This document shows, one piece after another, positions 5,091 to 42,286 of a stretch of DNA of 64,000 nucleotides (position 1 is its first letter; the number at the start of each line of letters is the position of its first letter). This DNA comes from Isoetes taiwanensis (taxonomy: Eukaryota > Streptophyta > Lycopodiopsida > Isoetales > Isoetaceae). Where the stretch lies: NCBI GenBank assembly GCA_021234155.1, contig JAJEKV010000002.1:36433107-36497106 (forward strand), read 5' to 3'. The position numbers were made by a program, and so were the translations under genes. The notes beneath the pieces were generated by a model, which did not search any database, had not been told where the DNA came from, and saw nothing but the letters and a program-made list of their open reading frames with translations.

Positions 5091-5828
5091 CACTAAGCAA
5101 ATTAACCTATAGTCGTTAAAAATAGTTAAGGAAAAAAAAAAGGCGGCAACAGAAGAGCAGAAGAGCGTTGTCGGTGGAGAAAACTGGAATTCTTAGCCTT
5201 TGGAAGCTTCGGATTCATCAACGAATTTGCATGCAGGTAATGTGTCCTCCCCATTTCGTTTCTTTCCAAATAATTACCTGCTTGCAAGCAATCTCAGTTT
5301 TCTCCAAAATTATTTCTACAGGAACAAAAATCTCCCTTTTCAATTTCGAAATTGCATGACTGTTATCTATTCTTATATGCCTTTTTATCAAGGCATTCAT
5401 GATCTTATCAAGAAAAAAGACTCCTAATTCAGCTTCTAAAGTGTCTTTTCAATTTCGAAATTGCATCTTCTTCCATGATTAAGATCAGGGCATTCAGGAT
5501 TTTACCAAGGAAGAAGGGCCCCTAATTGAGCTTCCTTTTATTCGATCCCAGGTAAGCAGTTTGTTTCATAATTCTATTCTATTTCAGCTCTCAAAATGTT
5601 GGAATCTTTGGCAAGCACAGCCTTCATAATCCCTTTTGCATTTAACAGGGTTAATTCATGACTTATGCCTTTGAATGGCATTCTGCCATATAGAAGCTCA
5701 TACATGCACTCTGTTCCATGTTTAGCTGATTTCCCTTCTTTGATTTTCATTAGAGATGGAGATACATCACATTTTAATGATAGGTCAAAATCAATGTGTT
5801 TATATTAATGTTTGTTTCATATTGCAGT

Positions 5829-7546
5829 ATGGATTTGGAAGTGGGATTGGAGTTTGATTTCATGCAAGATCTTCATTCACATGTCAAGAATGTTTGCATT
5901 TCCTCTGCGGTAGAGCTCCGTGTTATTGCATCTGACAGGAAGAGGTACACAGTAAAGTGCAAAATTCAAGGATGCCCGTGGAAATTGCATGCTTCCCTTG
6001 TAGGTAATGGCCCTAGTTGTGCAATTAAAAAGTTATCAGGACATCATAATTGTGTTGGCACTGAGCATTTGGAAAACAAAGAGGCGACTGCAAATTGGAT
6101 AGCAACAAAGTTTGTGGAAAAGTTTTCTGATGACCAATCTTATAGCCCAATTTCAATTCTTAGTGATTTGAGGCGTGAAGATGGTATTACTGTGCCATAC
6201 AAGACATCATGGCAGGCAAAGGAATTAGCAGTAGAGAGGATCAACGGAAATCAGGAGAAAAGTTATTCCTTATTGAAAAAGTATTGTCGTGAAATATTGC
6301 GCAGCAATCCAGGCAGTGTAGTTTTGCTGATGCATGATGATGATCACAGGTTTACACGCATGTACATATCATATGCAGCATGCATTTCTGCATTTGCCAA
6401 TTGCAGGCAAGTTATAGGCTTGGATGGAACGCATCTGAAAAATAGATATTTGGGTATCTTGATGACCGCTACAGGTATAGATGCAGCTGGGCAATTGCTT
6501 CCGATTGCTTTTGGTGTTGTTATTGCTGAAAATGACAATAATTGGTTGTGATTTCTTCGAAACTTGCGTGATAGTCTTGCTGCAACAAACACTATAACCT
6601 TCTTATCTGACAGGCAAAAGGGATTGATTGAAGGTGTCTCTACTATTTTTGGAGATGTTCCTTATGCTTATTGTATGCGTCACTTATCTGAAAACATGAG
6701 GAAAGAATTCAAGAATTTGGAATTGATAAAGTTGCTTTGGAAAGCTGCTTATGCATCAACAATATCAGATTTTGATGTTGCCATATCAGAAATGCGGGCT
6801 ATGAAACCAGAACTGCTACTTGGCTTCTTAACACGGCCCAACCCATGCATTGGTCAAATACACACTTTAAGGAATCCCGCTATGACCATCTTACACCCAA
6901 CATTGCAGAATCAGTCAATTCATGGATTCTTGAAGCTAGGGAATTACCTGTTCTACCAATGATGGAGTTGATACGTTAGAAGTTGATGAAATTGTTCTTT
7001 GAATGTAGAGAACAAGCCCAGTTGACCTTACAGGCTGCCGGAGAAGCAGGATCATATATGCTTGTGGCTAGTGCAGAGCTTCAAATCAAGAATGCATATG
7101 AACGCGCTAGGCATTATCGGATTATTCCTGCCACCTATCATGAGTTTGAGATTGTGTCACAAAAGTCTAGTCACGTGGTGAACATGGAAACAAGAGTTTG
7201 CTCTTGCAATGTGTGGCAAGTAAGTGGATTACCATGCTCACATGTATTTGCCGCTATTTTATTCAAGAAAGATCGTATCCAATCATATGCAATTCACGCA
7301 TATACATTGAGAGCATATTGTGACACCTATTCTCACATTATTCACCCTCTTCTTCCAAGAGAACAGTGGCAAGAAGAAGAAGGGGATGAGAAATTGCTTG
7401 CACCAAAGACACGTAGACCTCTGGGACGCCCAAGGAAGAGAAGAATTCGGACAGAAGATAATGGCAAGGAAAAACGTCCTCTTCATTGTAGTCGTTGCAG
7501 TGAAGCAGGGCATAACCGAAAGAGTTGTCGAGAGCCGATAAGTTAA
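5829..7546 (+). pseudogene. MURA-type MULE transposase, interrupted
   Basis: The likely start is the ATG at 5829, just after a splice-acceptor-like TTTCATATTGCAG, so a 5' UTR intron is possible. Domains in order are: an N-terminal Mutator DNA-binding zinc finger (CKIQGCPWKL, then GHHNC); the MULE catalytic domain (VIGLDGTHLKNRYLG through FLSDRQKGLIEGV to AYCMRHLSENM, which supplies the DDE-type acidic residues); a SWIM finger (CSCNVWQVSGLPCSHVFA); and a CCHC knuckle (CSRCSEAGHNRKSC). Breaks are a TGA at 6549-6551 after NNWL, where the family has Trp, a frameshift near 6811, and a TAG at 6977-6979. All domains remain readable, so decay is recent. It acts in the nucleus on MULE terminal repeats; this copy is unlikely to make full-length protein. 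Confidence 0.92.
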
Positions 7547-10420: not shown

Positions 10421-12173
10421 GCTTTTTTTTTCAGAAAAGGGAATTTTATTTTTTGTTCTTAGCTCATCGCTTCCTCCGGCGGTTGTCTTTGCGTTTTGGC
10501 GATTGATTTCCCTTTTCTTCCTTCTGCAAATCCTACAGCAGCAAATAGGCGGTGATCTCTTCTTTCTTCTTCAAGCTTCAGTACGGTTTTGCTTCTTGAT
10601 CCTCTTTCCTTTCTTACGTAGATCGAACATCGGCGGGGGTTATGGCGGCAAGTAGGATGAGGGAAGGAAGATATGGCATGAGTTTTTTTAGATCTTAGGT
10701 GGGCGACATCTGAGATGGTGACAAGAAGGCGGCGACTATGGCGGAATCTGGAAGCAATAACAGCAGAGATGGCGATGGCATATCGCTTGCAGATCGCTTG
10801 AGACCATCGAGTGTTTCATACAGATAAGTGTTTTGAAGTATAACCGAAGAGCTTCTAAACTAGCGGTGCATGATCTGCTATTGCAAATCGATGCTTCGGA
10901 TGCCCGTTCAAGCAAGGCGGTATGTCTTTGGCCCTCTAAAGTTCTAAAGCGGAAATGTGGTCAAAATAGAAATAGAAGAAACGGTGTATAATAACCCTTG
11001 GCAAGCATGGCGATTCTTCTAAATCTGGATGCACATCTTTGAGCCCATGAAATAAGGCTTTATGCCTTTCGAAGAAATGGCCGATTAAGCTTGTTCTTGG
11101 TGAAATGGATTGAAATGCCCTAAATGCTACTTCGAACTTCGAAATCTTTGGTTTAGACCTCTGTGATTGGCAAAGCGGCATTTTCTTAGCCACACCTAAT
11201 CGCGATATTTTCTTAGGATTCAATATTGCGGATCTTTCTTTGGATCTAAGTCTTATAGATTTCAGTTTTGGGTGATGAAGCATGGCTGAATGCCAACCGA
11301 TGTGTATCGAGAGATGCCTTATCACGGTAGATATCTTTGGCAGCAGGGAAAGCGGACCACACATATATTATTACGATGGCCGAGTTGCTCCGAAAGATCT
11401 TATGATCATATGCTTAAGGTAGGCAATGACCCATCCGTCTATTCATTTCAGGATATTTGTATCTTATGATGATGGCTTTGTGGATACAAGATGTGCTTTT
11501 GAAGCAAATTTAGCTGTATGATATATGCTGAAACCTAAGGCCAGTTAGTGTTTTATCATAAACTCTTGTTCAGGTTTGAACTTCTATTTTGATCCAAAAC
11601 TTTGATGCAAAAATAAGCTGCTAATATGCTATGATGGAAGCTTATCTTCAGTGCATTTCCATTTGCCAATGTTCCAATCAATTTGTGGCTCTTGATTATC
11701 TGTGGCAACACATAGTGCATTTCCATTTGCCAATGTTCCAATCAATTTGTGGCTCTTGATTATCTGTGGCAACACATGATTCAATTTTACATAGCGATGG
11801 CAATGACTTGCTGCATTTAACTAGCAACATTTAGTTTGAATTTGCAGAGTTTTGATGCAAGAAATGGTTACTTGTTGCCAACAAATGACGGCTCTGAATG
11901 CTAGATATTCAATCCATGGCAAGGATAGGAGCTTAGGTACTTGGAGGCGAGCTTTTTAAGGTTTGCTTCACTGATTATAAATTGTACATTGATAGGAATC
12001 GTCTTGCATATGGTGGATGTACAGAATTAGTTTATGAATCCAAAGCTTCTCAGACTTGATGCTTCTTAGCATTATTTATGCCTTCATGGGTTATTAGTTA
12101 GCAATTGCGTATCTACTAAGATTCCATGATGATAGAACAAAGAAATCTTGAACTTGAAATGCTTGAATAGTGG
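10421..12173. other. Upstream region of the Mpv17 gene; possible 5' exon on plus strand
   Basis: A T-rich, UTR-like stretch (10420-10640) precedes two ATGs. One, at 10738, opens a 29-codon frame, MAESGSNNSRDGDGISLADR and on; a frame offset reads YNRRASKLAVHDLLLQIDAS until a donor-like GTATGT near 10920. This may be the first exon of a host gene cut off by the 13-kb retrotransposon at 12179, but I do not recognise it. The minus strand also has a 142-codon open frame at 10936-11364 with no recognisable domain. The rest is AT-rich with no signal except the tandem duplication at 11650. Confidence 0.3.
11650..11777 (+). repeat. Tandem duplication, period 64 bp, two copies
   Basis: The unit beginning AGTGCATTTCCATTTGCCAA starts at 11650 and again at 11714, essentially without mismatches, indicating a recent slippage or repair duplication. 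Confidence 0.9.
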
Positions 12174-12178
12174 TTGTA

Positions 12179-13810
12179 TGTGACGTTCCAAGGGAATATA
12201 CGCCATAAATACGTATATTCCTGGACCCGTCACCATACAAGTCTACCTAGGTAGCCTTGTATGCCTTGGATAAGTGGCAAGGGGTGCATATCTAAGTTAA
12301 TTGTTTAACTTAGATAACCTTAGGATAAGGCTCATTTCCACATGGCCTTATCCTATTGGGCAACAGCCACACGGCCTCATCTTAGTGGTGCCACGTGGCA
12401 TCCCACGTGGACCCACACCTATATGAGCTCTAACCCTAACCCTAGACCCTTTTTCCTGACCCTAGCACACAGAAGCTCTCATCCCGTGCCCGAAACCCCG
12501 TTTTAGAGCACCGTTAAATCATAGTCTAGCACGAGGCGGCCGGCCCACGGAGGGTGTGTATGATCGTGGGGAGCAAGCCTTGAACCACGTCTAGGAGCAT
12601 GGAGGCGCCCGGGGGATGGGAGGAAGCGCTTACGGAGGAGGTAGGTTGAGTAGAGTTCATGTTAGTTCATCTGGAAGTTAGCACTCGGATGGGTTAGTGA
12701 TTAGTGTCTAGAGTAGAGCCACCCTAGACCCTTTGTTGAACATCTTGAACCCTAATCAAGGAACCCTAAGCGATAGTTAGATATGTATGATTAGGTTAAG
12801 ATGTTCATATGATATTGTTCATGATGATTATATGATGATGGTTGATCATGTTGTTCCTCTTGTGTTGGGAAGGGGGGTAGAGACCTAGGGCCATATGTAG
12901 TATGCTCCTAGTGTAGATCCCTTAGTTCCTATTAGTTGCGGCCTGTGCATAGGAACCCACCGGGCTATGGAAGCTATGATGTGACTCAGCACCACACAAC
13001 GGGGCTAGAGGCAAGATGGAGGGTGGATCCCTGCCGAGTGGGGGCTTGGGGGATCCCACGGTGAGCTAGGCTTATGGTGGGTCACTTAGGTGTGGGCCGA
13101 GCATGGGTCCGGCACCTCACGGGGCGATGGTGTCGCCTGCCTCTCAAGAGTTGCAAGTTTCAGCTTGGCTCTTGTTTTGGGGGTTCGGTCGGGAGTGCAG
13201 TCGTGTGTGCCCCACGATTCTCTAGCCACCCGTGGAGCCTCTAGACCCGGGGAAGGGAGATGCAACCCTTCCTACCTCGTCGGACCAGGGAGATGCAACC
13301 TGGAGTAGTCCCGATGGGTGATGCCATGGGATTGCGTATCCGGAAGGTTAGAGTCATGCCATAGCTTGATCTAGCCCATCTGCAAAGTATGCACAGGAGG
13401 GGCGGATGGAGTGGTCAACCCTAGCCATTGTCTTATGCCAGCCCGCCATTGTTATGATTGATGCTCTATCTTGAGGCCTACCCAGTCAGTCGACTTCCTT
13501 TCGAGTCGGAGCCACGGATAGGAGCTCTGAGGTTTTATGGCATATGATTATGTTCCTTGCATCTATGGATATGCGATTGAGCTACCCTTGAGTAGCATAT
13601 TGTATTGTATTGCTAGTTTACGGCGTGTTACGCTTCGGCTGTGATAGGAGCCCATAGGGAAGGGCGCCAAAGACACCTTCGTGTCCCCTTCCCTTTCTGA
13701 GGAGGATCCCGTGAGTCTTGGATAAGCGGAGGGCTGTCGCGGTTGATGAGCCGGGCCGGGGATTTCTGCCAGTGTCGGCGGGCGCCAGTATGTTTAGCGA
13801 GGGCGTCACA
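12179..13810 (+). repeat. 5' LTR of the H3-carrying chromovirus (1632 bp)
   Basis: It starts TGTGACGTTCC and ends GGGCGTCACA, so its two ends form a 7-bp inverted repeat. It aligns over its whole length with 23640-25257. Confidence 0.95.
12419..12426 (+). promoter_or_regulatory. Likely LTR TATA box (CTATATGA)
   Basis: Conserved at the same place in the 3' LTR (23875-23882), with CCTATAAAGG at the matching place in the related minus-strand LTR (53227-53236). Conservation in three LTRs supports the LTR core promoter. Confidence 0.5.
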
Positions 13811-13811
13811 A

Positions 13812-13823
13812 TGGTATCAGAGC
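13812..13823 (+). other. Primer-binding site, initiator tRNA-Met
   Basis: TGGTATCAGAGC lies one base after the LTR end. It is complementary to the 3' end of plant initiator tRNA-Met, the standard primer for reverse transcription. Confidence 0.92.
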
Positions 13824-14382
13824 CGATGTTCTTGGTTGACCAAGAACTAGCACTGACCATAACCATGAAAGTAGCCTAACAGGCCTATAGGGGTGTGAAA
13901 TAAAAATTTCCACCATAGAACCTCGAAATAAGGGAAAAAAAAATTTCTCCTAGGTAGTGGGTCCGAAATTAGGTTAAGAAGCAAATGAGTCAAATTCACC
14001 TTCTAGTAAAATTGGAGTGAAAATTATGCATCTGCATCAAATTTCACCTAAAATGGGTCAAAGAATCATGCCAATCGGAGACCTGGGTGAAAAATGGCGC
14101 AAATCTATAATTAATACTTCAAACTATTAGGAAATTTGAAATTCTTAAGGTATAATACGAATTTTAGTATATGTATTAGAAATTAAACATATATTAATAA
14201 TAAGGGTACTATGGGGTAATTAATAAGGGGGGCTAATAAGTAGGCCTATTAATGGTAGGAGAATATTCCCAGGGACCCTTCCTTTTAAATAGTGTTGCCA
14301 CCTCATTTTTCCCTCCAAACCTTTCCTCCACCTTATCTCTCTTGATCAGCCTTCGTCACCCGTTTTTCTTGGCCAGTCAAGT
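13824..14382 (+). other. Leader before the histone-like gene, with TATA-like TTTTAAAT
   Basis: About 560 bp, AT-rich in its middle. TTTTAAAT at 14283-14290 is followed by a pyrimidine-rich stretch and then the ATG at 14383, an arrangement like a stand-alone plant promoter and short 5' UTR. The TATA assignment is tentative. Confidence 0.4.
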
Positions 14383-14992
14383 ATGGCTCGCACCAAATGA
14401 CTGACTAGGAAGTTCGTGGCGACCCACGCTCGATGGCGCAGTAGCGGTGGGATGCCATCTGAAGAAAATCCGGAGCACCTCAGGCCTAAGAAGGGGAAGA
14501 GGAGTTTCCCTCCCGGCGGCCGGCAACCTATCACGATCTTTGAGGCGCCCTAGCGGCAAAGGCTCTTCGGCCGCGGGCACCTGGGAACCCCGCGGAGTCC
14601 CGCCACTTTGGGCCCTCACGGACCACGGAGGAGGTAGAGGGAGCAGGTAGAAGAGCAGTTGAAGAGCGGTGTGGAAGAGGCGGGTCCTTCAGTGCCCAAG
14701 AAGAAGGGCAAGGAGAAAGTTGCGGAGTGGCCGGAAGAGAGGGCTGCGAGGAAGAAGAGGGAGCGTGAGCGGGAGCTGAGGGAGCAGGAGAGAAGGACCA
14801 AGAGGAGGAACGATCGGCCCCGGAGGACCGTAGTAATTGAAGAGCCTTCCCGGCATGAGGAAGACGAGGTGGAAGAAGGGGAGGCTTAATGAAGGAAGAG
14901 GGAGGAGGAGGACGCTGACCCAAGGCCACCTTATCCAAAGTGGGTCCGAGCCACCTAAGGTGGTTAAGAAGAAGGTATGACGATCCTTCGCC
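14383..14992 (+). pseudogene. Degenerate N-terminal part of the captured histone H3-like gene
   Basis: The ATG at 14383 opens with MARTK, the invariant start of histone H3 and many CENH3 proteins; a TGA at 14398-14400 replaces the next codon, after which the frame continues LTRKFVATHARWRSSGG. The same frame, broken by TAGs near 14548 and 14635, goes on into a Lys/Arg/Glu-rich block (14659-14889: KKKGKEKVAEWPEER, then KKRERERELREQERRTKRRN, then an acidic run) ending TAA. A frameshift then leads to the histone-fold frame at 14993. If it was once one gene, its N-terminal extension was about 270 residues, far longer than the tail of any standard H3. The assignment as one gene is inferred from the MARTK start and position. 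Confidence 0.65.
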
Positions 14993-15472
14993 TTGAAGGA
15001 GGACCGCCTCTACCAACGCCGCCTTAAGGCGTATCAACAATACCTCCGTCAGTGGACGAGGTATAATGATTGGTACTGCCGGCAGAACGTCCAACGCACC
15101 GTGGAGGGGGGCCGGCCACCAAAGAAGCAGCCCAAGCCACCGCCGCCACGACCCGAGAAGCCAAAGAAGGTCCACCATGGGCCTAACTCCCCGCACGCCC
15201 GAGTTTTTCGGGAGATTAAGCACTTCCAACAGTGCACTAATCTCCTGATTAGGAAGGCACCATTTGAGCGGCTCATGCGGGAAGTGATGCAGGAGTTCGT
15301 CACCGACTATCGGGTGACGTCGCTAACAACTAGGGTGTTGCAGGTAGCTGCGGAAGCAGAGCTCACCCAGCTGTTCGAAGAAGGAAACCTCTGCGCAATC
15401 CATGCGAAGAGGGTGACCCTGATGCCCAAGGATATACACCTGGCGCGTCGCATCCGCAAGGAACGCCCTTGA
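14993..15472 (+). CDS. Histone H3-fold protein inside an LTR retrotransposon
   Basis: An open frame of 159 codons. Residues 1-67 are basic and Pro-rich ([20 protein letters not shown]). Residues 68-159 are a complete histone H3 fold aligning without gaps to canonical H3: alpha-[21 protein letters not shown], alpha-1 [11 protein letters not shown], loop 1 VTDYRV, alpha-2 [19 protein letters not shown], then [14 protein letters not shown] and [10 protein letters not shown] at the C-terminus. Loop 1 has canonical H3 length, not the longer CENH3 loop, although HFQ and APF in the alpha-N region recall plant CENH3. In H3 numbering, K56 is Gln, S57 is Cys and K79 is Val, while K64, C110, H113, K115 and K122 are kept. 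It should form an H3-H4 dimer in the nucleus if expressed. No ATG opens this frame (first codon TTG), so expression of this copy probably needs the broken upstream start. There are no introns. The call as an H3 family member is firm; its subtype is not. Confidence 0.93.
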
Positions 15473-15684: not shown

Positions 15685-15970
15685 GCGAAACCGGGTCGCG
15701 TTGCGCAAAACCCCTCTGCGCCCGCGACGCAGAGCCATTCTGCGCGACGCCACCCGATTTCGGCACTTTGTCATTAATTGATGTCCAAATTGAGTAATAT
15801 AAGTTGTTAGTTAGGTTAGAAGCACGCTAGAGAGTCATGTTAGGATCTTTAAATTCCCTGAAACTCTTCATAAAAGTAGAAATAACCCGAAATCAGGTCG
15901 CGTCGCGCAAAACCCATCTGCGCCCGCGACGCAGGGCCATTTTGCGCAACGCCACCCGATTTCGCCCAAA
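15685..15970 (+). repeat. Two GC-rich direct repeats of about 80 bp
   Basis: Copies at about 15685-15768 and 15886-15970 share GGGTCGCG, TGCGCCCGCGACGCAG and ACGCCACCCGATTTCG. The surroundings are AT-rich, so these stand out as CpG islands. Each unit has near-inverted halves (GCGCAAAA and TTTTGCGCAACGCC). Function unknown; a regulatory or insulator-like role between the two cargo genes is possible. Confidence 0.8.
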
Positions 15971-16257: not shown

Positions 16258-17007
16258 ATGGCGCCATCAAGCTTTGTTAGATGGTACAATGACTCCAATC
16301 ACATCCGTGAATTCCCTGCTGAGCAAGCCTTTCATGTCTTTGATCATCTCTTTGATCTTCATACCACCTTAACCAGAACTCCTTACTACACTGACATCAT
16401 CTGTCAATATGATCAGCACATTCTACCCTGGGAAGTTAGCTTGCCACCTAGGGGAGGGAAATGGGTTTCCTTAGACACTCTTACCCAAGCCATAGGTAGG
16501 GGATCCAGGGGCAAGAGTAGGCTGTGGGATAGAACCAGAAACATGCCGGACTACATAACCTGTAAGCATCATAGGCATAGGTACGTCTCAAACCAAGCAG
16601 CTTTAGCCTTATTCATGCGATGCAGGCGATCAACCAACCAGGGGAGCCGTCAATTCAACCTTTGGATTTGGCCCCACTCAATACTCGGACGGCTCAGATA
16701 GGCATTCACGAGATCGAGACTGCGGAGTATGAATATCACGGCTCCACATGAAAACACGTGTTGCGGATTGAGCGGGGATTATGAAGAGGAAGAGGAAGAG
16801 AAAGTTGGGGAAATGAGGGAGGCAAGAAGGATGGAGAAGCATTTGGCTCGGCAATGGGGAGGTACTAAAGGCGAGACTTCGAGCATAATAGGTATCTCGC
16901 GGCCCTCACCCCTGATCATCGGCCAGCGAGGAGTACATATTAAGCCACGATATCCTCAACCTTCCTTATTGTCGGGAAGAGGGCCTCCGGGATGGATGAG
17001 CTCCTAG
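16258..17007 (+). pseudogene. Second cargo gene, N-terminal part, unknown function, frameshifted
   Basis: A clean start (CAATGGCGCC) opens MAPSSFVRWYNDSNHIREFP, continuing 147 codons to 16701. A frameshift near 16620 (after ALFM) moves the natural reading into another frame (QPLDLAPLNTRTAQIGIHEI), and a further shift near 16755 leads to an acidic then basic stretch (DYEEEEEEKVGEMREARR). There is no gag, nucleic-acid-binding or histone motif I recognise. Composition (many His, Trp, Tyr) suggests a folded globular domain. It lies between the H3-like gene and gag and may be joined to 17209-17805 in an intact copy. Confidence 0.55.
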
Positions 17008-17208
17008 GCCTAATGGCACAAGAGCAGGCGGTGACTTCATCGACTACTCCTACCAAGAGATCCCAAGGGAAATAGCCGCGACGACACTCCTACGGCGAGG
17101 GAAACTATGTCCGGACATTCAAAGCGCACCAACGGATAAAGCGCGGATGTTCCAACGGCGGCAACCCGGACATTCCGGAAGAGGAATTCCGGGGAGATCC
17201 AAAGCAGG

Positions 17209-17805
17209 TTGTACAAGCCGGGAAGAGGCCCAAGCTCAAGCCGACCGGTGCGCTCCATGAGCGTACGTGAAGCATCTAGCAGCATTAATCTGGAGAACGC
17301 AGCAACAATGTGGAGGGACCACGAAGATCTTACAGCAATAGATGTCTTCGGCGAGGCAGCTCGCAGGAGAGGCACGGGAGCCACGGGGCCACACAGGGGT
17401 AAATCACTCAGATACTATCTTCCGGCCCTTAGCCAAGGACAGATGATAGTCTTTCACAAGGAGTTCAGCCCAAGGGGTGAGGAATCAGTGGCGCTCCTTA
17501 TAGCACTTACAGGTTTTGGGCAGCATGCCAAGATAGATTTCGGAATGGACCATGTTATACTCTTCAAGAGATCCGTAGCCCTTCATGCCCTCGACTTCGC
17601 AAGGGGCCACCTCAGGGATGCGCACTTGGCAGTAGTGGCGGCAACGGCACCAGAACTTCCGGCACCACAGATGGCAAGAGCTTTGGAGGGAGGATCGGCG
17701 GCAAGAATCCTACGGAACGTCGGCAAGGGCATAGGATTCAAGAACGTCAAGAACTTCTTCAAGTCTATGAAGCGACATCGTCGATGGGAAAACTTGTTTT
17801 GTTAA
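17209..17805 (+). CDS. Second cargo gene, C-terminal ORF, unknown function
   Basis: An open frame of 198 codons. A Ser/Arg-rich start is followed by LTAIDVFGEAARRR, GKSLRYYLPALSQGQMIVFH, RGEESVALLIALTGFG, and an Ala/Leu-rich helix region (SVALHALDFARGHLRDAHLA). It closes with a strongly basic tail FKNVKNFFKSMKRHRRWENL. I do not recognise a family. The basic C-terminus would suit binding to nucleic acid or histones. The first codon of the frame need not be the true start because the preceding 200 bp still looks coding in another frame. Proximity to the H3-like gene and absence from ordinary gypsy elements mark it as cargo. Confidence 0.5.
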   Translation: MYKPGRGPSSSRPVRSMSVREASSSINLENAATMWRDHEDLTAIDVFGEAARRRGTGATGPHRGKSLRYYLPALSQGQMIVFHKEFSPRGEESVALLIALTGFGQHAKIDFGMDHVILFKRSVALHALDFARGHLRDAHLAVVAATAPELPAPQMARALEGGSAARILRNVGKGIGFKNVKNFFKSMKRHRRWENLFC

Positions 17806-18111: not shown

Positions 18112-19238
18112 ATGGCGTCCGGAAGCAATCAACGCAAAGGCTTCGTCCGGATGAGGAACCCGGATGCATCGGCTGATCCACCGGCCACCCCATTGATGAA
18201 TGCCCAAGAATATGCACTGCTCCACCACCACCTCCACCGCTACCTCGGCAAGGCATCGAGAAGGTCCCACAGCAGAGGGGCGGGACAATCAAGGGAATGT
18301 CGGAGAAAAAGGTAAGGAGTCCAACACCACCTAGCTCCAAACTCCCCCATCGGACACTTCAGGCAGGTCATGACCGGTTCTAGCTGAAAAGTGAGTCCCT
18401 CACTAGGCAAGGGAAGGAAGATGATTATTATCAAAGAAAGTTGGCGAAGCTTATGAGCAATGTGTGGAAGACTAGGAAGTTGGGTCACCGTGGAAGGACA
18501 AAGGCCGTGGTATGGAGGCGTGAAGCCCGGCTTGACGAGATGGAAGAGTTCGGCAACTCTTATGGCATGAAGGATAAGGATATAGGGAAGGTTGTTACTG
18601 ACAAACTTGATAGGAGCAAACTAGAATCGGGTGGAAAGGCTATGCTAAGTCCAACAAGCTCAAAAAGGAACGATTCTTGATTCAAGACCTTCAAAGAAGG
18701 CTTTTCAGACATTATGTGCCTAGGTCACATACTAGCAGGCCAAATCCAGCTTCTATAGATTGAACGAGGGTACATTGTCGGTTGCAAAGTATCTGAGGGA
18801 ATTTATGTGCGACTTAGACTCCATGTTCTGGAGTGTCGGAAAAACAAAGCAAAAAACTTACATTGAGGGATTGAACAAAGAATATCAAAAGGCTAGTCCG
18901 AGAGCAATCAACCCTAAGTCGATGCATGCGTTTGGAATAAAGCCATAAGTTTGGAAGAAGCTCCAGCAACGCCAGGTGAGAGACAATCGGCCTTCAAAGG
19001 AAAGTCAACGGTGCAGTATCAAGGGCAACAACGAGTAAGCAATCAAGAAATCACGCCATCGAGGCCAAGACATGGAAGAGCTCGAGGTAAGAACTTTGGG
19101 GACCGTAAAGCCGCAGAATGCATCAGAGGGGCAGATGTTAAAGCGTATTCTAGGCGGCCGGACGAAAAGAGAAGAGACAGGAATGTATTGAGAAGAAGCT
19201 TTGTATCAGTGCTTCTAGCCGAGGCACAGAACCCATGA
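18112..19238 (+). pseudogene. gag, heavily degenerate
   Basis: It starts MASGSNQRKGFVRMRNPDAS and continues in pieces across several frames. Retrotransposon gag features are RFLIQDLQRRLFRHYVPRS (about 18672-18735), EGTLSVAKYLREFMCDL (18763-18820) and KTYIEGLNKEYQKA (18850-18895), then a basic Gln/Arg region. No intact CCHC knuckle is visible. In an intact copy it would form virus-like particles in the cytoplasm. Confidence 0.7.
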
Positions 19239-20759
19239 TTGCCTATTCGTCATGCAGCAAAGCCTTGGCGAGCTTATGGATTGGGATTCACCAATGAATG
19301 CGAGAAGAAGGCGACCAGCATGAGGCCCGGGACTTTATAGATGGTGAGTGCCATATCTGTGCAAACATTGAGTCGATGACATTGAAAAGTCGATCCAACA
19401 GGTCATTGCGGTTGAGGGATCATAGATAGCAGTCCATATCTAGTATTGATAGATACGGTAGCTCTCATAACTTTGCCTCTCCTAGGCTGGCTGCCCTAAT
19501 GAAGAACAAAGTATTGAAGTCTAAGCCAAGGCCAGTTTGCTATGGCAAAACGGCGCCATTATCACACTAAGGGGAGGAGGATCACATTGACATAGACCTT
19601 AGTGGAAGTAAGTGGCGATGGGGGCAGGGTTATGGAGATTGGAAGGTATGACCTTATAGTAGGAATGGAGTTCCTAAAACCAAATAAAAAGCCATGATCG
19701 ATTGCGACGCAAATGAAGTCGCCATGACAGCACCGGACGGCACCAAATTCATAGTGAGAGGTAAGAAGACAGCTTCTTCTATGCAATGTATTTCTTTGAA
19801 GCAGCTAAGGAAAAATATAGAAAGAAATAAGGTGGATTACATTTTGAGATTGGAGGCAATTGAGCCCAATAAGCAGGATGGAAACGATCAAAAGGGAAAG
19901 CAGTTGCCCAAGCCAGTAGCAAGGCTTATTTCTGAATTCAAGGATGTATTTCCGGATGAAATCCGGCAGCTACCACCTTATAGGGGTGTGGAGTGTGAGA
20001 TCACATTGGCACCAGATGCTAAGCCTACCAGCAAGGCACCATACAGGATGAGCACACCAGAGTTGATTGAGCTCAAGAAGCAACTCCAAGAATTGCTTGA
20101 ACTTGGTTTTATTAGAGCAAGTGTGTCTCCTTTTGGAGCACCCATACTCTTCGTGAAGAAGAAAGATGGCAGCTTAAGAATGTGCATAGACTATCGCCAG
20201 CTCAACAAGCAGACGATAAAGAACAAGTATGCATTGCCAAGGGCAGATGATTTAATGGACCAGCTCCAGGGAGCAAAGGTATTCTCTAAGATTGATTTGA
20301 GGTCAGGGTACCACCAAATAAGAATAAAAGAAGAGGATATCCATAAGACCGCATTCAGAACGCGGTATGGTCACTTTGAGTTCTGATAATGCCCTTTGGA
20401 TTGTCGAATGCTCCAGCAACTTTTATCTCGCCTCATGAGCGGCGTCTTGAGGGGATTTTCTAGATGAGTTTGTCATTGTCTTCTTGACGACATTCTAGTC
20501 TACAACAAAGTCCATTGAAGATCATAGTCAGCATTTGAGAAGGGTGTTAGAAAAGTTGAGGCGGCATCGTTTGTATGGAAAAGCTCTCCAAATGCCACTT
20601 TGCTACTTGAAAGAGTGGAGTACTTGGGCCATGTCATATCGGTGGAAGGGATCTCCACCGACCCCATAAAGATCGGGCGCGAGAGTAGATTGGCCAGCTC
20701 CAAAGAATGTAGCGGAAGTAAGAAGCTTTCTAGGTCTGGCGGGGTTATTCTGAAAGTTC
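19239..20759 (+). pseudogene. Protease and reverse transcriptase, interrupted
   Basis: The protease end is visible as YDLIVGMEFL near 19650. A 230-codon open stretch from 19694 covers the RT N-terminal half: [75 protein letters not shown] and [20 protein letters not shown], up to a TGA at 20384-20386. Beyond it the catalytic LDDILVYN block (about 20485-20510) and EYLGHVISVEGISTDP (20620-20665) lie in different frames. RT copies element RNA to DNA; this copy cannot. Confidence 0.92.
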
Positions 20760-21605
20760 GTGAAGGACTTCGCTAAGTGGGCGTCCCCCTTGACGGACCT
20801 CACTAAGAGTGTTAAGGTGAAAGATTGGAGAACACATTGGTTAGAAAATGTTCAAGCTTCATTTGAAAAGCTTAAGGAGGCCTTAACAACAGCACCAGTG
20901 CTAGTTCTGCCAGATCCAGACAAGGACAAGATAGTAGCAACAGATGCAAGTAAGATAGCAACAGGTGGAGTCCTTATGCAAGAAGGAAGAGTAATAGCTT
21001 ATGATTCCAAGAAGTTGAACGACACCGAGCAGCGCTATCCAACCCATGATCAGGAACTTCTAGCTATTGTCAGGGCTCTTCGTATTTGGAGGCATTATTT
21101 GCTTGGGAGGAAGTTTCAGTTAGATACTGATCACCAGAGCCTCCAATACATCTTTACCCAACCACTCCTGAATCTAAGACAAAGGAGGTGGATGGAATTC
21201 CTAGAAGAGTATGACTTTGAGATTGCTTATAAGCCAGGTAAGTTGAATGTGGTTGCGGATGCCCCTTCTAGAAGACCCCTTGAGACGAGAACACATTGTA
21301 ATGCTATATCAACTCTTTCGAGTGGGTATGGCAAGAAAATTGAGGAGACTCTACCATCTGATGGTGATTTCAAGGAGGTATGGGAAAGCCTCTCTAGAGA
21401 GGCTAGAACAGATAAGGAACGAGAAGCCTTCAAGCATTATAAGAAGGAAGGCAACTTGTTGTATCATAAGCATAAGTTGTGTGTGCCCGAATCATCAGGG
21501 GTAAGGAAGCTAATTCTCCATGACACACACAACAGCCCAATAGCAGGGCATGCAGGGTTTATGAAGACCTACTTCAAGATTCGAAGTAGCTACTTCGCCG
21601 AATGA
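20760..21605 (+). CDS. RNase H and integrase zinc-finger segment of pol, open
   Basis: A 281-codon open stretch. It contains the RT connection (ASPLTDLTKSVK), the RNase H start VATDASKIATGGVLMQEG, AYDSKKLNDTEQRYPTHDQE, LLGRKFQLDTDHQSLQYIFT, RWMEFLEEYDFEIAYKPG, and NVVADAPSRRP, where ADALSR is usual. The integrase finger start follows, HDTHNSPIAGHAGFMKTYFK. It ends at a frameshift at 21605. It is part of one polyprotein and not a separate gene. Confidence 0.9.
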   Translation: MKDFAKWASPLTDLTKSVKVKDWRTHWLENVQASFEKLKEALTTAPVLVLPDPDKDKIVATDASKIATGGVLMQEGRVIAYDSKKLNDTEQRYPTHDQELLAIVRALRIWRHYLLGRKFQLDTDHQSLQYIFTQPLLNLRQRRWMEFLEEYDFEIAYKPGKLNVVADAPSRRPLETRTHCNAISTLSSGYGKKIEETLPSDGDFKEVWESLSREARTDKEREAFKHYKKEGNLLYHKHKLCVPESSGVRKLILHDTHNSPIAGHAGFMKTYFKIRSSYFAE

Positions 21606-22200
21606 AGAAGCAGATAGCAAGATATATTCGCGAGTGTCAGTTGTGCCAGCAAACCAAAGTGGAGCAGCTTCGAATTCCAGGTGCCTTGGAACCTCTAGCA
21701 GTGCCGAATGCGAAGTGGGAAGTAGTAAGTATGGATTTTATCACATGACTTCCCAAGACTCTTCGAGGCAAAGATGCATTGATGGTCGTAGTAGACAAAT
21801 TATCTAAGATGGCACATTTTGTGCCTTGTAGAACTACCGACACAAAGATTAGATAACGCCAAGCTATTTGTGAAGGAGATTTTTTTAGGCTCCATGGCAT
21901 GCCTCGGGAGATAATATCGGATAGAGATTCCAAGTTTATGAGTGCTTTTTGGCAGGACCTCTTCAGCACCATTCAGACGAAGCTCTCCATGAGCACGGCA
22001 TATCATCCCCAAACAGATGGTCGAACGGAGAGGACTTAATCAATCATTGAAGATATGCTTAGAAGCTTTGTGTGGAATAGCATCAAGTGGGATGAGTACA
22101 TCCACTTGGTGGAATTCGGCCTACAACGAGGCCAAACAAGAGTCATCCCGATGTCTCCTTTCATGGTAAATTACGGGTACCCAACCTTTAACCCCTACAC
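21601..22200 (+). pseudogene. Integrase catalytic core with stop codons
   Basis: In the frame from 21603 the CQLCQQTKVEQLRIPGALEP finger end is followed by the DDE core: first Asp in SMDFIT, second in [17 protein letters not shown], and the Glu in SIIEDMLRSF after [13 protein letters not shown]. In-frame stops are TGA after DFIT (21746), TAA near 21854 and TAA near 22036. All three are one-step changes from sense codons, so decay is by point mutation. Confidence 0.9.
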
Positions 22201-22790
22201 TTGGCACAATCCCGTCGAAGGTTGAAGTGTCCCAAACAGATGCTAGGAGATATGCAGCGCTTGGTGGAAGAAGTGAGAGGTTACCTCCTAGCAGCAAGAA
22301 GCCGGCGTAAGAGTGTAGCCCACAAGCACAGGACCGTAAGAGAGTTCAAAGTAGGCGATAGCGCAGGGTTGAAGATCAAGGTCAAGCAAGCTAAGCTTGG
22401 GATTGGGAGTTGCAAGAAGCTTGCCCCTAGATGGGCTGGTCCGCTCAAGATTTTGGAGAGAGGGCTCCCCAAGCCTACAAGTTGGATCTCCCCCCATCTC
22501 AAAGTTCACAAGGTTTTCCACGTAAGTTTATTGAAAAGGCACAATCCTAATCCTGATGAAGTTTTTGGATACTCCAACCTTGTTGGAAATGACGGAAGAG
22601 CAAGTGGAAATTGTGCCCGAAGTTACTTCTTGATAAGTCATTCAAGAAGACTAGGAGGTCTCGATTCCTCCAAAGATTTGGTCAAGTGGAAGCACTTGCC
22701 CGTGGAAGACGCGACATGGGTATCAAGGTGACTTGGAGAAGCAATACCTGCAGTTTATGAAGGAGTTTGATGGGCGAGTCGCCTCCCGAA
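22201..22790 (+). pseudogene. Integrase C-terminus and chromodomain
   Basis: It reads REFKVGD, KKLAPRWAGPLKILERG, and HLKVHKVFHVSLLKRHNP, the usual end of gypsy integrase. A chromodomain comes at about 22640-22735, best seen as LVKWKHLPVEDATWVSR, with its preceding strand in another frame. In chromoviruses this module binds methylated H3 or other chromatin marks and steers integration. Frameshifts break it here, but its identity is clear. Confidence 0.8.
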
Positions 22791-23630: not shown

Positions 23631-23639
23631 AGGGGAGAA
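23631..23639 (+). other. Polypurine tract (AGGGGAGAA)
   Basis: Directly precedes the 3' LTR and would prime plus-strand DNA synthesis. It matches CCTAAGGGGGAGAA in the second family member. Confidence 0.8.
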
Positions 23640-25257
23640 TGATGTCAAGGAATATACTTTATAAACACGATATTCCTCGACTGTGCCACCATACAAGTCT
23701 ACCTAGGTAGCCTTGTATGCCTTGGATAAGTGGCAGGGGGTGCATATCTAAGTTAATTGTTTAACTTAGATAACCTTAGGATAAGGCTCATTTCCACATG
23801 GCCTTATCCTATTGGGCAACAAAACACACGGCTCATCTTAGTGGTGCCACATGGCATCCCACGTGGACCCACACCTATATGAGCTCTAACCCTAATCCTA
23901 GACCCTTTTTCCCCTCTCCAGCACTGAAGCCATCCACGTGTCCAAACCCCCTTCGAAAGCACCGCTCGTTATAGTTCAGCTCGAGCAAAGAGCTCCCCTC
24001 GGAGGGTGTGTATGATCGAGAGGGAGCAAGCCTTCAACCACGCCTAGGAGCATGGAGACGCCAGGATGGAGGAAGCGCTCGAGGAGGTAGGTTGAGTAGA
24101 GTTCATGTTAGTTCATCCGAAGTTAGCACTCAGATGGGTTAGTGATTCGTGGTCTAGAGTAGAGCCACCCTAGACTTGTTGAATATCTTGAACCCTAATC
24201 AAGAAACCCTAACCATAGTTAGATATGTATGATTAGGTTAAGATGTTCATATGATATTGTTCATGATGATTATGTGATGATGGTTGATCATGTTGTTCCT
24301 CTTGTGTTGGGAAGGGGGGTAGAGACCTAGGGCCATATGTAGTATGCTCCTAGTGTAGATCCCTTTAGTTCCTATTAGTTGCGGCCCGTGCATAGGAACC
24401 CACCGGCTATGGAAGCTATGATGTGACCCAGCACCACACAACGGGCTAGAGGCAAGATGGAGGGTGGATCCCCGCCGAAAAGGGGGGCTTCTGGGATCCC
24501 ACAAAGAGCTAGGCTTATGGCCTGGCCACTCTGCAGGGCCGAGCATGGGTCCCACACCCCCGGGCGATGGTGTCGCCTCGCCTCAAGAGTTGCAAGTTTC
24601 AGCCTGGCTCTTGTTTTGGGGGTTCAATGGCACGAATCGCAGGTCGCCACGATTCTCTTAGCCACCGTGGAGCCTCTAGACCCTCGAAGGGGAGATGCAA
24701 CCTTCCTACCCCGGGCCGGACCACCGGAGATGCAACTTGGAGTAGTCCCATGGGTGATGCCATGGGATTGCGTGATCCCAAGGTTAGAGTCATGCCATAG
24801 CTTGATCTAGCCCATCCGGCAGTATGCACAAAGAGGGGCGGATGGAGTGGTCAACCCTAGCCATTGTCTTATGCCAGCCCCGCCATTGTTATGATTCGGT
24901 TCGGCCATCTTGAGGCCTACCCAAAGAAGTCGACTTCCTTTCGAAATGGAGCCACCGGTAGGAGCTCTCAGGTTTTATGGCATATGATTATGTTCCTTGC
25001 ATCTATGGAGGAAGCGATTGAGCTACCCCGCCAGGTAGCATATTGTATTGTATTGCTAGTTCTCGACGGTTACGCCCGCCGTGATAGGAGCCCATAGGGG
25101 AGGGGCGCTAAAGACACCTTTCAGAGTTCTTCCCAAGACTACTACGGAGGATCCCCAGAGTGCGGGATAGATGGAAGGCATCAGGCGGTTGATGAGCCTG
25201 GACGGGGATTTCCTCGCCGACCGTTCACGGGCCAGATGTTTAGCAAAGGAGCGCACA
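23640..25257 (+). repeat. 3' LTR of the H3-carrying chromovirus (1618 bp)
   Basis: Aligns throughout with 12179-13810 but with frequent small differences, indicating an old insertion. It ends GCGCACA and is followed by the TTGTA target duplication. Confidence 0.93.
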
Positions 25258-25262
25258 TTGTA

Positions 25263-28582: not shown

Positions 28583-28601
28583 CAAGTTGGCTTAAGTCAT
28601 A

Positions 28602-30869
28602 ATGTCTACTAGATTTGCAGCAAATTTGTTGAACCAAATTGAAGTATTTAAGGGGGACACTGGATTCCAAGTCTGGAAGGAGTCTATTAAGTCTGTCCTA
28701 GAATTTGAACATTTGTGGCATCTTGTAGATGGCGGCCAAGCAACTGTTTCAGCCAGTTCTGGAAGTACAAGCCCTGCAGTTAGCTCTAGCAATCCAGGAG
28801 GAGGGACTGGAGCTCCACAAGGTTCTGGAGTTGTTACTGTAACAGATGACACCAAGATTATGGAAGCTCAGCAGATAATTTTAAGCAAAGTAGGTACTGC
28901 TCGGAAGCTGAGATTAAGAGGGATGAAACCTCATGAAATGTGGCAGTATCTTATAAGTCAGTATGAGGTAAAAAGTTCTTCTCAAATAGATCTATTGGAA
29001 AAACAACTAAAAAAGCTGAAATTATTTGAGAAAGATGAGCTAACAGATTTTTTGGAGAAGTTTGATTCAATTGTGGCAGATCTTGAAGGAGCTGGGAATG
29101 TTCTTAGTGAGCAATATCAAATATTGGCACTACCTAGGGCTGTCTCTCACAACACTCAGCTTGCAACATTGGTAAGAAATGTAGCCACCTCAAAGGAACA
29201 TGCCTTGAGGATGATTCGTACAGAATTTGAACAGTCAAAGGGTATGCTTGAGGATGATCAATCTCCAGAGGTATTGTTTGCAAGAAAACAGAAAAGAGGA
29301 GGTGGTTCCAGCTTTGCTAAAGAGAGATTAGGGCCCTGCTATACTTGTAATCAATATGGACATTTGAAAAATGAATGTCCAAGTGGAGATAAGCAATTTA
29401 AATGCTTTAATTGTGATGGTAAAGGCCACATATCTGCAAATTGCCCAAGCCCAAAGGGTATTGGAGGAAGAGGCAGGGGTCGAGGAAGAACACAAAGAGG
29501 AAGGGGACGTTTTAAAGAAAGTGCCAGCCTGAATATTATAGAAGATACCATTGAAGAAAACTCTGATGACATTGAGGTAAAAGATGTGTTAAATGTTTTT
29601 GAGTTCTCTGCTAAAGATAATAACAAATTTCTCATTATAGATTCAGGAGCAGAAAAGTCAGTAGTGCATGATGTCAAGACTTTAAAAGAATGTAAAAAAG
29701 AGAATGGCCAAGTGCAGCTTGGAGATGGTGGAGTGCAGAAAATTAGGGACTCTGGAATATTAGAATTATTTGATTTGAATGGAAAAAGTGTGTTACTTAA
29801 AGAAGTGTTGTGTGTACCAACACTTGTCAGAAATTTAATTTCAGTGTGCCAACTTGTGGATCTTGGTTACAAGGTTGTTTTTGAGAAGCTTGAATGCAAA
29901 ATATTTTTCAATAATATTTTGAAATTCATTGGAAGAAGAGTAGGAAATTTGTTTGGTTTTCACAAAGACCATACATTATCTATCAACATTGTTGAATGTG
30001 TTTCAAAAACAACTTGGCACAATAGGTTATGTCACACTCATTCATCAAATATTGATCTGCTCATTAAAAGCAAGCTTATAACAGCAAAAATAGATGAAGA
30101 GAAAAAACTTTGTGGAGGTTGCCAGCTTGGCAAGCAGTCAAGGCTCGTATTTAAAACAAAAAGCAAGAGAGCAAAAAGGGTGTTGGAGTTGATCCACACA
30201 GATCTGTGTGGACCCATTAATATCACAGGAATAGAAGGTCATAGATATTTTATGACATTCATAGATGATTTTAGCAGAAGAACAAGATGTTATCTGTTAA
30301 AAATAAAAGATCAAGCATTTGAAGCCTTAAAACTATTTGTGGCTGAAGTTGAACTAGAGATAGATAGAAAAATTAAATGCATAAGATCAGACAGAGGAGG
30401 AGAATACTTGTCAAAGGAATTCAAATGGTTTTGTGCTAACCGTGGCATTAAAAGACAGTTGACTTGCAGGTATTCTCCTCAGCAAAATGGAGTAGCTGAA
30501 AGGAAAAACAGGACTTTGCTAAATGATGTTCGATCTATGCTATCAGGTCTGCCAAATTTTTTATGGAGTGAGGCTTTGAAGACAGCAGTGCATGTTCAAA
30601 ACATGTTGCCATCTGTAAGTACTAAAGGTACAATTCCTGAGATGTTGTGGTCAGGGAAAACTCCACTCTATGAAAATTTAAAGTCATTTGGTTGTTTGAG
30701 TTTTGTTCATATTCCTGAAGAAATTAGAAAAAAACTTGATGACCGTGCATACATTGCATATATGGTAGGTTATAATCTGCATTCAAAGGCCTATAGGTTG
30801 TATGATCCTACTCATAGGAAAATCTTAATCAGTAGAGATGTAGTGTTCAATGAAAACAAGTTTTATTGA
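28602..30869 (+). CDS. copia gag-protease-integrase polyprotein, first 755 codons
   Basis: The ATG at 28602 follows the primer site by 20 bp. Gag occupies residues 1 to about 240. Two CCHC knuckles follow, CYTCNQYGHLKNEC (about 246-259) and CFNCDGKGHISANC (about 268-281), then a Gly/Arg-rich stretch. The protease active site IIDSGAEKSVV is near residue 346. The integrase finger has WHNRLCHTH (near 471) with CGGCQLGKQ (near 503). The catalytic triad is in HTDLCGPI (near 532), IRSDRGGEY (near 595) and NGVAERKNRT (near 632). A TGA at 30867-30869 after NENKFY ends it before RT; copia elements normally read through as one ORF, so this is a premature stop. Confidence 0.95.
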   Translation: MSTRFAANLLNQIEVFKGDTGFQVWKESIKSVLEFEHLWHLVDGGQATVSASSGSTSPAVSSSNPGGGTGAPQGSGVVTVTDDTKIMEAQQIILSKVGTARKLRLRGMKPHEMWQYLISQYEVKSSSQIDLLEKQLKKLKLFEKDELTDFLEKFDSIVADLEGAGNVLSEQYQILALPRAVSHNTQLATLVRNVATSKEHALRMIRTEFEQSKGMLEDDQSPEVLFARKQKRGGGSSFAKERLGPCYTCNQYGHLKNECPSGDKQFKCFNCDGKGHISANCPSPKGIGGRGRGRGRTQRGRGRFKESASLNIIEDTIEENSDDIEVKDVLNVFEFSAKDNNKFLIIDSGAEKSVVHDVKTLKECKKENGQVQLGDGGVQKIRDSGILELFDLNGKSVLLKEVLCVPTLVRNLISVCQLVDLGYKVVFEKLECKIFFNNILKFIGRRVGNLFGFHKDHTLSINIVECVSKTTWHNRLCHTHSSNIDLLIKSKLITAKIDEEKKLCGGCQLGKQSRLVFKTKSKRAKRVLELIHTDLCGPINITGIEGHRYFMTFIDDFSRRTRCYLLKIKDQAFEALKLFVAEVELEIDRKIKCIRSDRGGEYLSKEFKWFCANRGIKRQLTCRYSPQQNGVAERKNRTLLNDVRSMLSGLPNFLWSEALKTAVHVQNMLPSVSTKGTIPEMLWSGKTPLYENLKSFGCLSFVHIPEEIRKKLDDRAYIAYMVGYNLHSKAYRLYDPTHRKILISRDVVFNENKFY

Positions 30870-31493
30870 GCTATTCCAAATGTCAATGATGAGGATGTAA
30901 TTAAGACTAATCAAGCTAACTCTGTTGCAAAGGAAATAGTTGAGCATACTGCTCAGACTGAAACAAAATTGCAGGATACAAGTAATGCCATTGACAGTGA
31001 TAATGAAGATGGAGATGATGATAACATTGAGGTACAAGATACACAAAGCCTATCAAAGTTTGAACCTGCAATGGAACCTGTATTATCTGAAGCAGGGGCA
31101 ACAGAACCTATGCTGATTGAACCTGCAACAGAACCTGCAGTATCTGAAGATGAGACAGCAGAGCTTGAACAGGCTGAACCTTTAGAAAAGCCAAAAAGAA
31201 AGGCCAGAAGAACTGAGGCTCAGATTTTGGCTGATGAAAGCAAAGTTGAACTAAAAATGCATGGCAGCACTGAAGCAGGTAGAAGTAAGAGGCATCATGG
31301 CAGCAAAGGTGAAATTCACTCTGTATTTGATATTCTTGTGTTGGAAACTGATAAGTTGCCAAATAATTTTGAAGAAGCTATTAACAGTAAGGATTCTGAA
31401 AACTGGAAAAAAGCTATGGAGGACGATATGCTATCCTTCAAAAGGACAGAAACCTATACTGTAGTTGATAGACCATCAGGTAAAAATGTTGTA
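30870..31493 (+). pseudogene. copia pol, linker and start of RT
   Basis: The same polyprotein continues with an acidic, Glu/Pro-rich linker (30969-31200), then NNFEEAINSKDSENWKKAME and TYTVVDRPSGKNVV, the conserved run-up to copia RT. The 2.2-kb insertion interrupts it directly after this motif. Confidence 0.85.
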
Positions 31494-31495
31494 AC

Positions 31496-33740: not shown

Positions 33741-34590
33741 TTGAAATGGATTTTTAGGATAAAGCCATGCATTGATGGATTGACTAAGAAATTCAAGGCA
33801 AGACTTGTAGCACAAGGATTTACTCAGAAGAAAGGTTTAGATTTTGATGAAACATTCTCTCCATTGAGAATGTTGCTAGCCATTGCCAACTCATGTGACA
33901 TGGAAATTCATCATATGGATGTAAGTACTGCATTTCTTAATGCAAAGTTGGAAGAAGAGATATATTTAAAACCTGCACCTGGATTTGAGGAAAAAGAAGG
34001 TAAAGTTTGGAAATTACATAGGGCAATCTATGGTTTGAGGCAAGCACCACGAGAATGGTATAAATGCATGGACAATTACCTTTTAGAGCAAGAGTTTGAG
34101 AAGCTGAAATATGATGGAAATTTGTACAGGTATAAGAATGGGAAGAATTGGTGTATTATAGCTCTATATGTTGATGATAATATCTGGTTGCAAATGACAA
34201 AGGTATATTGGTTCATTGTAAACAATTGCTCAACAAACGTTTCCAAATGACAGATTTGGGTGAGCTTAAGAGATTTCTTGGTATTGAAGTTAATAGAGAC
34301 AGAAAAAATAAGCTGCTAACTTTGAGCCAGCCAACTCATATTTTAAATATGTTGAAGAAATTTAACATGAGTGACTGCAATATAGCACAGACACCCTTGG
34401 TTCCAGGGCACAAAATTTCTGCTCATATGTGTCCAAAAACAGAAAAAGAGAAAAAACAAATGGAGAACACACCCTACAGATCACTAATTGGGTGCTTGGC
34501 TTATCTAGCTAATTGCACAAGACCAGATATTGCCTTTGGGGTAAACATCTTAAGCAGGTACAACCATAACCCTGGTTTAGAACATTGGAC
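33741..34590 (+). pseudogene. copia reverse transcriptase, frameshifted
   Basis: WIFRIK, KARLVAQGFTQKKGLDFDET, MDVSTAFLNAKLEEEIYLKP, IYGLRQAPREWYKCMDNYL and the catalytic YVDD (about 34168) are in one frame. A frameshift just after YVDD moves to HCKQLLNKRFQMTDLGELKR, PYRSLIGCLAYLANCTRPDI, and a second shift near 34585 leads into RNase H. Confidence 0.93.
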
Positions 34591-40287: not shown

Positions 40288-41968
<1,681 letters not shown>

Positions 41969-42286
41969 TCCTGTGATCCCCTTTTCCTCCCCTCCCCCTT
42001 CATTATATGCTACGCTTGGTCCAACCTCTAGTATTTCGCCACGTCTTCGTATTTCTTGGCCACATATTTTCGTTGACTTCCATTTAGTTAGTTGCACTTA
42101 CAATAACACACAATATCACAGTTGGGTCGCTGCTATTTCCGGTGGTGCATTCTCAGGCATCCACGTCGCCCCTGCCGATTTCAAGGAATCCTATTTCCAT
42201 TCTTCATGCTTCAGCACCGGCTGCACAGGTAAGAAATCGTAGCAAATTTTGATCATACTAACCGGATCTTGCGCTCCCCAACTGTG

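Follow-up and report, generated by a model that had tools for sequence, protein, structure and literature searches.

A Ty3/gypsy retrotransposon family of Isoetes taiwanensis carries an H3-type histone gene with a conserved fold

The closest described system to the one reported here comes from the fungus Pyrenophora tritici-repentis, where a hAT DNA transposon, published in 2013 (PMC3538342), carries an H3-like gene named H3L. According to the parts of that paper used here, the element has terminal inverted repeats and is present in 26 near-identical copies in one fungal genome, and H3L matches neither H3 nor CenH3 completely. ESTs were reported for it, which by analogy may be taken as a precedent for the expression of a transposon-borne H3-like gene. 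The authors considered that the H3L genes may have undergone drift and raised altered chromatin as a possible effect. Other mobile elements and viruses offer partial parallels. Neumann et al. (2019; PMC6317226) described extra open reading frames (eORFs) of at least 250 codons in 3,372 Ty3/gypsy elements; these eORFs are heterogeneous, highly divergent and thought to come from many sources, and the plant mobile domain, Transposase_28 and Athila ORF-1 are among those named. No histone is named there as cargo in the sections drawn on, and the word "histone" occurs once in the main text, in connection with chromodomain binding. Ty3/gypsy elements of Phalaenopsis have a functional m6A RNA demethylase domain, and the accompanying screen of 121 angiosperm genomes gave 15 extra domains in LTR elements (PMC9289625); the section on this screen, whose full chart is in the supplement, names no histone among them. 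The maize LTR element Bs1 carries host gene sequence, with no Bs1 segment having a full-length ORF in the text available, and "histone" does not occur in the main text (PMC13317346). Among viruses, the bracovirus histone H4 (CpBV-H4/CvBV-H4) joins host nucleosomes (PMC5423620; reviewed in PMC9145170), and single viral H3 histones, such as that of xenomavirus, are also described in the consulted part of the review, in whose main text the word "retrotransposon" does not appear. Across the open-access literature, covered through titles, the beginnings of abstracts and chosen passages and excluding subscription papers and supplements, we found no histone-carrying LTR retrotransposon.

In this work we have analysed a 64,000-nucleotide stretch of Isoetes taiwanensis DNA (the window), in which a member of a chromovirus-type Ty3/gypsy retrotransposon family, here called F1, carries a gene for an H3-type histone. 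Like the hAT element described in the accessible sections of PMC3538342, it is a mobile element with an H3-like gene and a second ORF of unknown function; unlike it, it is an LTR element and not a DNA transposon, and neither divergent families nor dN/dS figure in that account. As the two are unrelated in kind, the fungal transposon is a parallel case and not the same family. We excluded the identity of our element with an H3L-type hAT transposon, because it has LTRs and a gypsy pol, and a Pfam scan of ten pieces of the window gave no match to a hAT family. The likeness to the eORFs of plant Ty3/gypsy elements, as far as these are described in the part of PMC6317226 used, lies in an extra forward gene upstream of gag-pol: the H3 frame of F1, open over 360-436 codons in all 20 copies fetched by H3 score, is longer than the 250 codons used there. 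Those eORFs are highly divergent, whereas the H3 fold of F1 is strongly conserved. The Phalaenopsis elements, from what the consulted text says of them, share the Ty3/gypsy lineage and an extra ORF with a captured gene of host type, but this gene is for an RNA demethylase and not a histone. Bs1, by the available account, likewise has host gene sequence within an LTR element, whereas in F1 selection has preserved a full gene across many copies. Going by the passages on viral histones, xenomavirus H3 was also captured and keeps the fold behind a longer and divergent N-terminal tail, though in a DNA virus, and the bracovirus histone is H4, not H3, in a wasp polydnavirus and not a retrotransposon. 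Thus, within the literature covered, H3-like genes in mobile elements are already known from one published case in another element class (PMC3538342); the new points are the LTR element, the several divergent groups and the measured selection.

The layout of the window copy is given in Table 1. A first-pass annotation had described an element with 1.6-kb LTRs and a perfect TTGTA duplication, and both proved correct; the LTRs, 1.6 kb long, are 86.3% identical over 1,604 aligned columns. The primer-binding site, TGGTATCAGAGC, is presumably of the tRNA-Met type, and the H3 gene begins about 570 bases 3' of it. In the window and the fetched copies, Pfam and blastn place gag, reverse transcriptase (RT), RNase H and integrase in gypsy order, and the Retrotrans_gag domain is present in copy L012. 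A chromodomain follows integrase with E 2.9e-8 in L058, a piece from the related group F2 described below, and with only E 0.008, below Pfam's cut-off, in the window copy; in L058 only one of the three cage aromatics was seen by eye in comparison with HP1. A short way 5' of the element, at 11650-11777, there is an exact tandem duplication of a 64-base unit. Elsewhere in the window we observed MuDR/MULE transposase pieces at 5784-7546 (Pfam, first piece only), a large copia-type element accompanied by an incomplete repeat of its region (28596-35151 and 36016-37020; a long gag-integrase frame with RT and RNase H pieces, judged by eye from the frames), and, on the minus strand at 41260-42097, exon-like pieces of an FMN oxidoreductase of the Oxidored_FMN family with 12-oxophytodienoate reductases among its PDB matches.

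Table 1. Features of the F1 element copy in the window.
Feature	Position	Strand	Remarks
Target-site duplication TTGTA (left)	12174-12178	.	sequence
5' LTR (TGTGACG...CGTCACA)	12179-13810	+	outer edges taken from sequence
Primer-binding site TGGTATCAGAGC	13812-13823	+	
TATA-like box TTTAAATA	14284-14291	+	99 bp before H3 start; candidate internal core promoter
H3 gene of the F1 element, with MARTK start, charged linker and H3 fold	14383-15472	+	decayed copy
H3 alpha-N and histone-fold region	15194-15469	+	
First hairpin, about 77 nt, in spacer between H3 and ORF2	15686-15762	+	z -7.7
Second hairpin, in spacer between H3 and ORF2	15888-15964	+	91% identical to the first; z -5.6
TATA-like box TATAAA	16140-16145	+	118 bp before ORF2 start
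ORF2, second extra gene	16258-17805	+	decayed in window
gag region, in broken pieces	18112-19238	+	blastn to 17 of 20 copies; start from the first-pass annotation
pol: protease end and reverse transcriptase piece	19688-20386	+	Pfam RVT_1 E 9e-13
pol: RNase H and integrase zinc domain	20754-21605	+	Pfam RT_RNaseH E 7e-35
pol: integrase C-terminal part with chromodomain end	22192-22731	+	SH3_Tf2-1 E 8e-7, Chromo E 0.008, both below Pfam's cut-off
3' LTR	23635-25257	+	pairwise comparison with 5' LTR
Target-site duplication TTGTA (right)	25258-25262	.	sequence

The complete H3 fold that had been claimed for the window is real. By sequence similarity it is far beyond chance, the stretch 14981-15469 matching PDB H3.1 with E 4.4e-32 and the H3 region scoring 109 bits against Pfam PF00125, whose cut-off is 26.4. 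The H3-type MARTK start reported upstream is also present, at 14383, but it is not a separate feature: it is the start of the same gene as the fold. This gene is decayed in the window, with several in-frame stops (four within the aligned pieces) and at least one frameshift, and in 16 of the 20 fetched copies a single frame runs from MART to the fold.

Is this gene a regular part of the family? The genome searched is 1.66 Gb, and the H3 part, used as a protein query, yielded at least 10,988 preliminary candidates, of which the 150 that were scored are 82-100% identical. We fetched 20 copies, selected by H3 score, and in all 20 the H3 gene is accompanied by the leader. Upstream LTR sequence is present in 19 (as one alignment in 18, that of L016 covering about two thirds, and split in L021), and ORF2 sequence likewise in 19; 17 copies have the gag region and 16 have RT, and in these same copies ORF2, gag and pol often have stops. 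Selection by H3 score biases both the openness of these 20 copies and their low dN/dS. A search with RT found 81 places, at least 22 of which have an H3 match within 15 kb upstream on the same strand. Twenty of the remaining 59 were inspected: 13 hold H3 in the right orientation, mostly decayed, and seven do not. In these seven, L033 has H3 on the other strand only, the piece of L040 stops in the leader before H3, L034 has unrelated sequence ahead of the spacer and L045-L048 have no family sequence; a leader joined directly to the spacer was seen in none of the 20 inspected sites. At L046:88-1005, where H3 would be expected upstream of a related RT, there is an open frame of 306 codons. The third search, with LTR DNA, gave 40 places, at least 14 with an H3 match at a stereotyped distance, either 1,152-1,222 bp downstream (eight, 5' LTR) or 6,931-9,218 bp upstream (six, 3' LTR). 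The position between primer-binding site and gag noted in the first-pass annotation is thus a fixed place in LTR-bearing copies, and its proposal that H3 is cargo of the family agrees with these counts. The proposal was to fall if the fold lay in this copy only, and H3 is found in many. Two of the 14 places are one element, L012, in which LTRs that are 99% identical (98.3% over 889 bases) surround an intact H3 frame and RT; an H3-bearing copy has therefore moved recently. Directly before the 5' LTR of L012, at L012:1-481, lies a second H3 fold fragment (93%), and from its sequence the element seems to have inserted in, or to adjoin, the H3 gene of another copy.

Two other explanations were set aside. 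A stray histone pseudogene in one copy is ruled out by the many copies and by the selection on the fold described next. A general artefact of histone amplification is excluded by H4, our sole control, which is not amplified: the search gave 69 candidates and 43 matches, with 16 full-length genes, none in a frame above 176 codons.

The first-pass annotation had named a dN/dS below 1 on the fold between copies as support for its proposal, and this is what we observed. In the 20 H3-selected copies and the window, the median pairwise dN/dS (NG86) is 0.05 for the fold and 0.12 for the whole H3 gene; in the same 21 rows it is 0.10 for RT, 0.18 for ORF2, 0.14 for gag and 0.20 for pol. The copies sampled through RT gave a fold median of 0.087 (45 pairs, 10 copies, stops excluded), with 0.25 for the tail and 0.34 for the linker, values which are rough because dS exceeds 1 in this set. 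From these substitution ratios it is clear that the fold was held under purifying selection while the family was active, and we consider H3 almost certainly to be a selectively maintained gene of the element. Could it instead be a passenger, a histone retrocopy picked up by accident that is now in decay? The copy in the window is broken, and of the 10 usable RT-sampled folds seven have stops, two more (L035 and L050) are split between frames and L031 alone is open throughout; the fungal H3L, moreover, is described as possibly drifting in the sections of PMC3538342 used. Against this stand a fold dN/dS of 0.05-0.09, the intact frame in a young copy, and the recurrence of the gene at the same place in many copies and in three groups, and we regard chance capture as scarcely credible.

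The predicted F1 protein, at 351-371 codons on the scale of L012 (20 copies), is longer than core H3. It consists of H3 tail residues 1-9, a linker of about 245 mostly charged residues and the H3 fold. Past residue 9 the tail is replaced relative to H3, and a full H3 tail is not present. Within the fold, R72, C110, H113, A114, D123 and L126 are kept in all 21 rows, R63, R83 and R116 in 20 and R69 in 19; we take these to be the residues of H3-H3 and DNA/nucleosome contacts. Residues 87-90, presumably the chaperone motif of H3, are altered, as are Y99 (E in 20 of the 21 rows) and K56, and judged from the residues concerned these changes could weaken binding to H4 or to chaperones. An AlphaFold model of the fold region has helices in the expected pattern at medium confidence (pLDDT 61). 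With a 363-residue query, 2,259 proteins were found at E <= 0.001; the 120 listed matches cover only 32-53% of the query, so that none of these is a full-length known relative of the F1 protein. One match, P0121, was examined in full and is a tandem H3 annotation, and residues 1-278 of L012 had no protein match at E <= 0.001. It may be asked whether such a basic histone-fold protein acts outside host nucleosomes altogether, condensing the RNA or cDNA of the element in particles in the manner of a nucleocapsid. The highly charged linker and the retention of the H3 gene alongside gag and pol would fit. However, the gag of copy L024 has a readable CCHC motif of the typical kind, by which the nucleocapsid job looks filled, and packaging would not need such conservation of the residues for H3-H3 and nucleosome contact. 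We think this role rather improbable.

F1 does not stand alone. A canonical plant H3 query found 15 host-like genes (96-98%) and then at least 135 places at 71-86%, with frames of up to 567 codons. Five copies from a second group, F2, were inspected and encode a protein of about 410 residues (409-410 codons), made of a different N-terminal domain and a near-canonical H3 end. In the F2 copy L051 this H3 end scores 141 bits in Pfam, which also gives a weak B3-domain match for the copy; the N-terminal domain itself (L051:392-1180; also in F3) has no Pfam match. A search with this domain yielded 4,130 candidates, and for 90 of the 145 scored the frame has 405 codons or more, a length sufficient to include the H3 end. 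Related pol was found in three of four F2 copies checked downstream (36-83% in pieces); in L051 there is none within 4.6 kb after ORF2. F3, with two copies, is 40-42% identical to F2. The H3 part is the best conserved region of F2, with a pooled pN/pS of 0.037 (10 pairs from five copies, biased as these were found through H3). By sequence comparison, which covered the H3 genes and, for F2, the downstream pol, F1 is one of several related groups of elements, and those of F2 and F3 have the H3 fold fused to another N-terminal domain. On a single capture for F1 and F2 the tree, whose bootstrap had not converged, gives a p-AU of 0.40, which decides neither way. The last residue is P instead of A in all 28 rows, a shared change which hints at one capture for both.

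The comparison of the three groups bears on two further explanations. The first is that the free ARTKQTARK tail lures away or recruits the enzymes and readers that act on host histone tails, such as those of K4 or K9 methylation, and that the fold is only its anchor. Such a tail is found in 12 of 16 aligned F1 copies; in the 16 rows with an in-frame start MARTKQT is invariant and K9 is kept, although S10 is not and later residues vary. Yet the five F2 and two F3 copies inspected have no free MARTKQT tail and still keep the H3 part, and in the RT-sampled copies the dN/dS of the tail is above that of the fold (0.25 vs 0.09). Tail mimicry as the main function seems to us unlikely, though not far-fetched. 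The second is that a captured CENH3 brings the element to centromeres. The tree does not place the F1 fold, and a clade of F1 with CENH3 is not rejected (p-AU 0.50, with two CENH3 rows); the motif REIKHFQxCTNLLI looks CENH3-like by eye. The host CENH3 was not found in a genome search that was flooded by H3. CENH3 has a longer loop 1 than H3, but loop 1 of F1 (residues 72-93) has 22 positions, the length of H3, in the four rows measured, and F2 and F3 are near-canonical H3. We regard centromere targeting as a very improbable explanation.

Three features of F1 were absent from the first-pass annotation: ORF2 as a second extra gene, a TATA-like box 5' of H3 and another 5' of ORF2, and two hairpins. 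ORF2 has 507 codons in copy L012 (L012:4484-6004) and no Pfam or PDB match, and a single-sequence AlphaFold prediction reached a pLDDT of 33; a distant relative follows ORF1 of the F2 copy L051 (22.5%, E 6e-10). The box TTTAAATA occurs at -94 to -100 of the H3 start in all 19 rows with a recognisable start (18 of the 20 copies and the window), and its conservation score is matched by three of 534 eight-base windows. Similarly, TATAAA stands 110-119 bp 5' of ORF2 in 16 of the 17 rows in which the start of ORF2 can be recognised, a score matched by three of 553 windows. Two fetched copies without a recognisable H3 start and four without an ORF2 start were left out of these counts. The position and conservation of the boxes suggest separate internal promoters in F1; the up to 200 bp that precede ORF1 in the seven copies of F2 and F3 contain no TATA-like box. 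The hairpins between H3 and ORF2 are near-perfect, about 77 nt each and 202 bp apart. Altogether nine of the 21 elements contain 15 hairpins, among which inspection by eye showed some paired changes, and a terminator, an insulator or an RNA signal is possible.

Why should a retrotransposon keep a histone gene? Our main reading, to which we give a probability of roughly 0.6, is that the regular gene set of the element includes an H3-type histone with the nucleosome role and use outlined here. The H3 protein would be made from its own internal promoter and would pair with host H4. Through the retained H3-H3 and DNA contacts it would then enter nucleosomes, a step which, judged from the conserved residues, we favour slightly. 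The long N-terminal part would be carried along as an effector or tether. In this way the DNA of the element, or chosen host chromatin, might obtain the element's own chromatin identity, which would help integration or escape from silencing; this use is put forward tentatively. Put more broadly, and held with a shade more doubt, perhaps a retrotransposon lineage makes its own nucleosome component, H3 variants with custom N-terminal extensions that work with host H4, and so marks its copies or its landing sites with a chromatin identity, beyond reading host marks through a chromodomain.

If elements of this kind do make their own nucleosome component, then, counting H3L of the fungal hAT transposon, mobile elements would have acquired H3 on two or more occasions. 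The divergent groups, with their differing N-terminal parts, conserved fold and high copy number, make the question of selection answerable. In a practical sense, work with H3-tail antibodies and searches for H3 genes in such hosts may be confounded by copies of the element. Retrotransposons are both silenced and targeted via nucleosomes, and an element with its own conserved H3 would be a direct test of the manipulation of nucleosomes by selfish DNA.
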